A DNA stretch of 64,000 bases, taken from positions 62,001 through 126,000 of the forward strand of contig JAPLDP010000021.1 in NCBI GenBank assembly GCA_026391695.1. Direction: 5' to 3'. Numbering within the stretch: the stretch's first letter is position 1; every line of letters begins with the position of its first letter. The position numbers and the translations under genes are program-made. Shown here one piece after another: positions 1,306-55,559 of the stretch. Source of the DNA: Bacteroidota bacterium. GTDB lineage: Bacteria; Bacteroidota; Bacteroidia; Bacteroidales; JAGONC01. The notes beneath the pieces were generated by a model. The model made no database searches. It was not told the DNA's origin and worked only from the letters and a program-made list of their open reading frames with translations.

Positions 1306-1324
1306 ATCCCGACGAAGTCGGGAT
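1306..1324. repeat. Perfect hairpin ATCCCGAC-gaa-GTCGGGAT
   Basis: Perfect 8-bp stem with a GAA loop in the gap between hldD and the adhesin. No T-run follows, so it is not a clear terminator. Related stems occur at 18066-18095 (GATCCCGAT arms) and inside the tRNA remnant at 55125-55144. The rest of the 349-nt gap (1244-1592) is AT-rich and holds no ORF. Confidence 0.6.
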
Positions 1325-18065: not shown

Positions 18066-18138
18066 GATCCCGATTTCACTTCGTTCATCGGGATCAATTC
18101 GACTAGCAATTTTTTCTTCACTGCATTCGAAAAAATTG
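18066..18138. repeat. Two tandem hairpins with near-identical loops
   Basis: Hairpin 1 at 18066-18095 has perfect GATCCCGAT/ATCGGGATC arms around TTCACTTCGTTC. Hairpin 2 at 18107-18138 has perfect CAATTTTTTC/GAAAAAATTG arms around TTCACTGCATTC. The stems are unrelated, but the 12-nt loops differ at only 3 positions. They lie between porT and the next gene. Confidence 0.6.
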
Positions 18139-55043: not shown

Positions 55044-55090
55044 GGAAAAAGAGGGATGACATCTCCGATTTGGAGATGTCAGCCCTCTTT
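55044..55090 (-). terminator. Strong hairpin after the GIY-YIG/tRNA remnant
   Basis: AAAGAGGG-TGACATCTCC pairs with GGAGATGTCA-CCCTCTTT around a 5-nt loop, with one mismatch, and on the minus strand a T-run follows. It would end a transcript coming from the GIY-YIG ORF. The inner GACATCTC words link it to the palindromes around the GH3 gene. Confidence 0.65.
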
Positions 55091-55092
55091 CC

Positions 55093-55155
55093 TGTGGGAG
55101 TTACAGGATTCGAACCTGTGACTCTCCCGACCTGTCAGTCGGGATGCTCTGAACC
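55093..55155 (-). pseudogene. tRNA 3'-half remnant (Val-like)
   Basis: Bases 55093-55122 repeat exactly the 3' end of tRNA-Val at 55483-55512 (T-arm, acceptor and flank, 30 nt). Bases 55143-55155 repeat another 13 nt of its D-arm side. Between them the anticodon arm is different: perfect 7-bp TCCCGAC/GTCGGGA arms with a 6-nt loop, three bases longer than in tRNA-Val. The 5' acceptor and most of the D-arm are missing and replaced by the GIY-YIG ORF, so no functional tRNA can form. Confidence 0.8.
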
Positions 55156-55398
55156 TTTGAAGATTAAGCTCCGAATCCGAATAGTGTTTTTCCATTTCTT
55201 TAGCTGACGCTCTCTTTCAGAGGCTTTCTCTTTCGTGGAATACTCTTCAGTATATACAAGTTTCCAATCATTCACATACCCGGTGTATCCCTGATGGTTG
55301 GTATTATGTTTTTTAATCCTATCTTGAAGATTCGATGTATAGCCGATATAATATTTATCTTTTATTTTACTGTGAAGGATATAGAAGTAATAATTCAT
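55135..55398 (-). CDS. GIY-YIG endonuclease-domain protein ending in tRNA sequence
   Basis: Product of 87 residues. YYFYILHSKIKDKYYIGYTSNL holds the GIY-YIG-like core (YIL...YIG), followed by the conserved arginine and EEYSTKEKASERERQLKKWK. The last residues GSEHPD and the stop are encoded by the D-arm and anticodon arm of the tRNA remnant (55135-55155). Short GIY-YIG proteins of this kind are common in Bacteroidota and may be single-strand or homing-type nucleases. An inverted repeat AGGGTCA/TGACCCT (55399-55405, 55437-55443) lies just before the start. Activity and mobility are inference. Confidence 0.8.
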   Translation of the reverse strand: MNYYFYILHSKIKDKYYIGYTSNLQDRIKKHNTNHQGYTGYVNDWKLVYTEEYSTKEKASERERQLKKWKNTIRIRSLIFKGSEHPD

Positions 55399-55450
55399 AG
55401 GGTCATTTTTCTGTTAATTTATTTTTCGTTAAAGTGTGACCCTGTGAAAT

Positions 55451-55480
55451 AAAAAAGCCATCACAATTGATGGCTTTTTT
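55451..55480 (-). terminator. Bidirectional terminator after tRNA-Val
   Basis: Perfect 13-bp stem of AAAAAAGCCATCA and its complement with a CAAT loop gives a T-run in either direction. It lies 4 nt after the tRNA-Val 3' end. Confidence 0.88.
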
Positions 55481-55484
55481 GGTG

Positions 55485-55559
55485 TGGGAGTTACAGGATT
55501 CGAACCTGTGACCCTCTGCTTGTAAGGCAGATGCTCTGAACCAACTGAGCTAAACTCCC
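55485..55559 (-). tRNA. tRNA-Val (anticodon UAC)
   Basis: A 75-nt cloverleaf on the minus strand. The acceptor GGGAGTT pairs with AACTCCC, discriminator A. The TAGCTCAG D-arm is present, the anticodon arm TCTGC-CTTACAA-GCAGA has TAC at the anticodon, and the T-arm is ACAGG-TTCGAAT-CCTGT. CCA is not encoded. All arms pair, so it should be functional; part of it is duplicated in the remnant about 390 nt away. Confidence 0.95.

Follow-up and report, generated by a model that had tools for sequence, protein, structure and literature searches.

Free-standing GIY-YIG homing endonucleases of the Seg type are encoded in T-even phages (PMC13096335; PMC2988022). One of them, SegB from phage T6, is associated with tRNAs of many isotypes and brings about the segmental amplification of tRNA genes (PMC13096335). 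It is the nearest published case to the arrangement reported here, which was not found described for a bacterial chromosome in the open-access literature on GIY-YIG, tRNA, palindromes, UPF0213, COG2827 and rnpB. The family studied here resembles the Seg enzymes in having a tRNA-adjacent gene and tandemly amplified tRNA segments. In contrast, it is chromosomal (in Bacteroidota and other bacteria), consists of single-domain proteins of ~85 aa always encoded on the strand of the tRNA, and carries a tRNA copy in which a TCCCG hairpin has taken the place of a stem-loop; SegB lacks such a copy as far as the text of PMC13096335 shows. Other systems share further features. Genomic islands and ICEs integrated in tRNA genes likewise have an intact tRNA at one end and a tRNA 3' copy at the other, whereas the element here has no integrase, a unit of only ~315-360 bp and a hairpin swap in the repeat copy. 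REP/RAYT palindromes and IS200/IS605 elements are similar in their conserved imperfect hairpins, dispersed copies and variable loops. Unlike them, the loci here lack a Y1 transposase and their hairpins replace tRNA stem-loops; the CGGGA-type repeat is also absent from the text of the REP papers PMC3733652 and PMC12306157. Finally, group I introns with homing endonucleases in tRNA anticodon loops (PMC3984707) also target tRNA genes, but the element here has no intron.

The window, a stretch of 64,000 nucleotides from a Bacteroidota genome, contains one such locus on its minus strand, in the order intact tRNA-Val(TAC), terminator, ORF for an 87-aa GIY-YIG protein, tRNA-Val remnant and terminator (Table 1). 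This order, claimed in a first-pass annotation, was confirmed by ARAGORN, the ORF list, the PF01541 match and the sequence, and the 30-nt copy of the tRNA-Val 3' end and the further 13 nt (GATGCTCTGAACC) that it had pointed out are both exact and in the place given. The end of the ORF (GGT TCA GAG CAT CCC GAC TGA, i.e., GSEHPD and stop) does run through the 3' side of the D arm and into the hairpin. By analogy with a resolved tRNA-Ala site (see below), the first terminator is presumed to be part of the element and the second is presumably the native terminator of tRNA-Val. No integrase-sized ORF exists in the 512-bp unit of the window or in the ~315-bp units elsewhere. Although hairpins are present, there is no Y1 (HUH) transposase, the GIY-YIG gene being the only ORF of the unit. 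Rfam detected no group I intron, its matches being to tRNA or weak and due to chance, and nothing interrupts the intact tRNA. On our best reading, the unit of the element consists of a tRNA 3' end with terminator, a single-domain GIY-YIG gene, and a pseudo-tRNA with a stem-loop swapped for a TCCCG..CGGGA hairpin.

Table 1. Features of the tRNA-Val locus in the window.
Feature	Position	Strand	Basis or remark
Intact tRNA-Val(TAC)	55484-55559	-	ARAGORN; Rfam 77.5 bits
Intrinsic terminator between intact tRNA and ORF, AAAAAAGCCATCA..TGATGGCTTTTTT	55451-55480	-	Read from sequence
GIY-YIG nuclease ORF, 87 aa, single domain	55135-55398	-	PF01541 E 2.4e-17; conserved residues; model pLDDT 83
tRNA-Val remnant, 3' side of D arm to 3' end, anticodon arm replaced	55095-55157	-	Sequence, Rfam; Rfam match reaches 55172
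Hairpin TCCCGACTGACAGGTCGGGA replacing the 17-nt anticodon arm TCTGCCTTACAAGCAGA	55125-55144	-	Loop gives the TGA stop of the ORF
Second terminator, 3' of remnant	55050-55089	-	Read from sequence

The remnant was scored by Rfam as a degraded tRNA (22.5 bits, under the 29-bit cut-off), and it retains the end of the D arm, the variable region, the T arm and the acceptor strand of tRNA-Val. The Rfam alignment (55095-55172) suggests that the stretch upstream of GGTTCAGAGC may be decayed tRNA as well. The anticodon arm has been swapped at exact boundaries for the hairpin TCCCGAC..GTCGGGA, which also encodes the last codons of the ORF. It had been suggested that the remnant could come from another tRNA, but its two 14-nt flanks match tRNA-Val at 11 and 13 nt, respectively, up to the hairpin edges at positions 28 and 45, and its odd arm is the TCCCG..CGGGA hairpin common to many isotypes, so that a different source was rejected. 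The tail of the ORF is a by-product, because residues 85-87 of the model have pLDDT below 50 and homologues end in other tRNA-derived tails or at an earlier stop. The objection that GSEHPD might occur without tRNA sequence failed, the tRNA-derived C-terminus being accounted for by the remnant.

The protein belongs to the GIY-YIG superfamily (PF01541, 63.4 bits against a curated score of 22.6), and Y17, G19, R27, H31 and E63 are invariant across 20 sequences. Both sequence and predicted fold place it in the UPF0213/SLX1-like branch. Its closest PDB relatives are UPF0213/COG2827 proteins (1zg2 and 1ywl) and the structure-specific SLX1 (E 2e-12 and 2e-6; Foldseek 5e-5 and 5e-3), most family relatives in the same genomes not being tRNA-linked. 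A separate domain for DNA binding is missing from the protein, and the solved structures nearest to it are not of a homing enzyme with such a domain. The kinship with SLX1 is compatible with structure-specific activity, whether the enzyme acts in homing or in an exchange of hairpins. Within the tRNA-Ala group, dN/dS values of 0.02-0.21 demonstrate purifying selection on the nuclease, and some ORFs of the family carry internal stops. A phage origin was rejected, as no relative was found in IMG/VR and phage records yielded a single weak match.

A scan of GTDB contigs recovered 37 relatives. Those most similar to the window protein, from Bacteroidota, Zixibacteria and Patescibacteria, adjoin tRNAs of many isotypes, whereas a second subfamily (WKR..NPxWxDL) has no tRNA linkage. 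The profile of the first, tRNA-linked group matched 251 of 395 Bacteroidota genomes, with 1 to 22 copies at differing tRNAs. At 95 of the 110 Bacteroidota loci topping the profile match list, an intact tRNA on the strand of the ORF lies no more than 500 bp away, against none for the opposite strand, a figure that describes this subfamily because the profile was built from tRNA-linked members; by our estimate from ~45 tRNA genes per 3.5 Mb, less than 1% is expected by chance. Some of the loci without a nearby tRNA lie at contig ends or have hairpin-tRNA pieces. When nearly all matches in 12 genomes were considered, tRNA linkage was found for 24/31 above a score of 70, 4/12 at 60-70 and 5/46 below 60, the low scorers, mostly other subfamilies, serving as an internal control; a tRNA on the opposite strand was again absent (0/89). 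The association that the first-pass annotation had suspected for small GIY-YIG homologues is therefore general. It involves 18 isotypes (Ala, Arg, Asn, Asp, Cys, Gln, Glu, Gly, His, Leu, Lys, Met, Phe, Pro, Ser, Thr, Trp and Val), and a tRNA 3' copy follows the ORF in 69 of the 85 loci with an upstream tRNA. With the degraded tRNA detected by Rfam and the same layout at 95 of 110 related loci, the observation in the window is far beyond chance. Decayed tRNA copies are common beside tRNA genes, and an unrelated GIY-YIG gene could have come to lie next to one. Such a coincidence is refuted by the strand bias, by the linkage of high scorers and by the identical hairpin signature at many isotypes and phyla, and its probability is negligible. 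Instead, the recurrence in many bacteria, and with 18 tRNA isotypes, suggests a minimal mobile element that is widespread.

Insertion into a site that is empty in relatives was found for a tRNA-Ala of one genus, a locus other than the tRNA-Val of the window. Of 30 loci at this syntenic tRNA-Ala(GGC) site, 11 contain the nuclease and 4 contain a hairpin-tRNA copy alone, upstream, while the majority of the remainder are empty. Several of the occupied loci show, after the intact tRNA, a terminator common to the elements (AAATACCCAAACAG..CTGTTTGGGTATTTT), then the ORF and a remnant with TCCCGATGCATCGGGA, and lastly a terminator of the kind located directly 3' of the tRNA in empty sites. As read from these sequences, element terminator, ORF and hairpin remnant constitute an insertion between the intact tRNA and its native terminator. 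This comparison of occupied and empty orthologous sites supports the earlier suggestion of an insertion that restores one intact tRNA, with the tRNA 3' copy and native terminator displaced. In two loci (L216 and L217) the remnant has the T-arm type of the element and the intact tRNA another type, which implies that the insertion junctions, at least there, lie within the last ~10 bases of the tRNA. For the tRNA-Val of the window, four genomes of the same family lack the gene at a tRNA-Val, but the gene neighbourhood there is different and these were not accepted as orthologous empty sites. Near-identical terminators on both sides at other loci could be explained by tandem duplication, which would produce them, and tandem arrays of ORF plus hairpin were found (315-bp unit in L064). 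A separate tandem array of tRNA-Asp (L079) adjoins hairpin-bearing copies and nuclease, and three of its copies are now tRNA-Gly(GCC) through an anticodon change.

We read the window locus, with moderate confidence, as a copy of a minimal element that inserts into tRNA genes in a homing-like manner. This reading draws on the same-strand linkage to tRNAs, the occupied and empty tRNA-Ala sites, the exact swap of inverted repeats, the tRNA 3' copies after the ORF, the clustering of isotypes on the nuclease tree, the purifying selection, the tandem arrays and the correlation of hairpin with nuclease numbers, with SegB as a precedent. The element would be placed so that one tRNA stays intact and functional, transcribed in the direction of the tRNA with the displaced tRNA 3' copy downstream. 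The nuclease may cut tRNA genes that lack the element, or their hairpin-forming part, and a copy that bears the element would then serve as template for repair of the break, the conserved tRNA sequence on either side providing homology. The hairpin in the remnant would abolish the target site and prevent re-cutting, and recombination between the repeated tRNA ends might generate the tandem arrays. Cutting and movement by the nuclease are thus what we infer for it. The chief difficulty for homing is that the intact tRNA beside the ORF resembles a normal target, with no consistent recoding relative to empty sites. Furthermore, no recent transfer was seen at the resolved site, the missing DNA-binding domain counts against a homing enzyme, and homing alone leaves unexplained the hairpin-bearing tRNA copies without a nearby ORF (13 of 30 loci). 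A cleave-and-rescue scheme with a recoded tRNA was likewise unsupported, because the anticodon arms of the intact tRNAs are of two types, CTTGC or CTACG, whether the site is occupied or empty.

Hairpins of the TCCCG..CGGGA type near these genes numbered 149, and in 135 a flank matched the neighbouring tRNA. Where both flanks could be anchored (79 non-redundant cases), the missing tRNA segment had complementary ends (2 bp or more) in 89%, compared with 6% of random equal-length segments of the same tRNAs, and sliding the replaced segment by one base reduced this to 0-6%. The swap is therefore of exact inverted repeats: whole 17-nt anticodon arms in Val, Arg, Ala, Met and Gln, and short inverted repeats in other cases, for instance CGAGTTCG (T arm, Asp and Gly), CAACCTTG (Gly) and ACCGAAGGGT (Asn). 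Across 122 distinct hairpins the inner stem varies yet stays paired (complementary in 97% at pair 6 and 88% at pair 7), and the distance between the arms is variable. The kept pairing and variable spacing suggest that a folded strand, more probably than a double-stranded dimer site, is what is recognised. A tRNA-Val locus of the same layout with the hairpin TTCCGT..ACGGAA (L185) indicates that the hairpin core differs between lineages. The genome of the window contains 51 dispersed TCCCGA..TCGGGA palindromes, against 0 copies of the reversed pattern. Across genomes, hairpin count correlated with nuclease gene count (rho 0.53; control -0.02; within-family permutation p 2e-4), a correlation that is partly trivial because each locus brings one or two hairpins.

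The ORF is also found in another structured RNA. In three genomes from the genus g68 it lies within the RNase P RNA gene, where the 5' strands of P1 and P2 come first and the ORF fills the P3 loop, which is 302-306 nt long there and 22 nt in three sister genomes. With these cases the host range extends beyond tRNA, to further structured RNAs that are essential. Together with the swap, they bear on a different mechanism, in which a structure-specific nuclease acts on hairpins folded in single-stranded DNA, cuts a small tRNA-gene hairpin out at its base, and the TCCCG hairpin, with or without cargo, takes the vacated place, as in the single-strand transposition of IS200/IS605 and REP/RAYT but with a GIY-YIG enzyme. 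The replaced segment being an inverted repeat, the stem conservation with variable loop and inner pairs, the unfixed arm spacing, the branched-DNA nuclease SLX1 among the nearest solved relatives, the hairpin-tRNA copies without ORF and the ORF inside a P3 stem-loop all speak for it. However, anticodon arms are palindromic in any case, and the resolved tRNA-Ala junctions lie near the tRNA 3' end, away from the hairpin, in at least two genomes. We also know of no strand-transferase activity among GIY-YIG enzymes. This mechanism accounts for the swap better than homing does, but is without precedent for the enzyme class, and we regard it as possible though rather unlikely. The same doubt attaches to the tentative corollary of a new mobile element that, with a GIY-YIG nuclease as sole protein, spreads by putting its own conserved TCCCG hairpin in place of a small hairpin in the gene for an essential structured RNA (tRNA, or P3 of RNase P RNA).

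In a nuclease tree of 139 proteins (80 columns, with many forks unresolved), tRNA isotype required 46 changes, compared with 99 when shuffled. Groups associated with Gly, Met, Ser and Asn were largely coherent, some across bacterial families and classes, and Val and Arg switched. Patchy tRNA-Ala occupancy and isotype clades across families would suit horizontal or super-Mendelian spread, but element identity tracks the flanks. At the tRNA-Ala site of one genus, recent transfer between species was looked for and not seen: divergence of element and flanks moved together, the element exceeding the flanks by more than 5 points in only 1 of 55 pairs. This suggests that over this time-scale the element was mostly inherited and lost, not freely transferred. 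Such tracking, the strong purifying selection and arrays of intact tRNAs such as Asp/Gly(GCC) in L079 would also suit a domesticated, vertically inherited host gene, whose tRNA-linked nuclease promotes duplication or repair of tRNA genes and so makes tRNA dosage adjustable; amplification by SegB provides a precedent (PMC13096335). We consider domestication unlikely, given the patchy occupancy of one site within one genus, the ever different tRNAs and copy numbers across Bacteroidota genomes, and the ORFs with internal stops.

The window remnant is stably folded as RNA (z -3.5) and the units lie within tRNA transcripts, as might be expected if hairpin pseudo-tRNAs were decoys or guides and the nuclease acted on tRNA rather than DNA. 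On the other hand, many remnants lack the T arm or acceptor strand and several swaps disrupt the tRNA fold. The GIY-YIG enzymes matched here (SLX1, UvrC and I-TevI) act on DNA, and action at the RNA level is very improbable.

As a homing-like insertion, the element would rank among the smallest protein-coding mobile elements, residing in some of the most conserved, essential genes without apparently destroying them, and reaching, besides the matched Bacteroidota species, several other phyla. It would explain odd tRNA pseudogenes and hairpins at tRNA loci that annotation tools misread, and a large set of small GIY-YIG genes whose function is unknown would gain a probable role. Further, the system bears on the question of whether movement or tRNA amplification needs more than a structure-specific nuclease. 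An ORF lying in the stem-loop of a catalytic RNA without an intron, as in RNase P, is an oddity in its own right.

Several minor observations accompany these loci. The RNase P loci are L143 (G054:C16:190449-191171), L145 (G163:C17) and L259 (G065:C1:1050842-1051443), and an inverted repeat of ~20 bp surrounds the nested ORF, e.g., CCCCGCACATAACATTTAA..TTAAATGTTATGTGCGGGG. Three TCCCGA..TCGGGA palindromes lie inside the window (1307-1323, 18068-18093 and 55125-55144), and most of those in its genome are outside tRNA genes, often beside AGCGAAGC-type repeats. On the contig of the window but outside it, L047 (G000:C21:42231-42248) comprises a tRNA-Asp 3' half with a TCCCGATTTTCATCGGGA hairpin, flanked by CTCCGGAG palindromes and with no nuclease gene seen adjoining, and is possibly a footprint of the element. 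In L206, L212, L220, L221, L020 and L010, tandem units of tRNA leader plus the 5' two thirds of a tRNA with hairpin stand upstream of intact tRNAs, also without a nuclease gene. Finally, the tRNA-Val remnant of L006 has a second hairpin, CCTGTCTAACTGGCGTTAGCCAGGTAG, inside its T loop.
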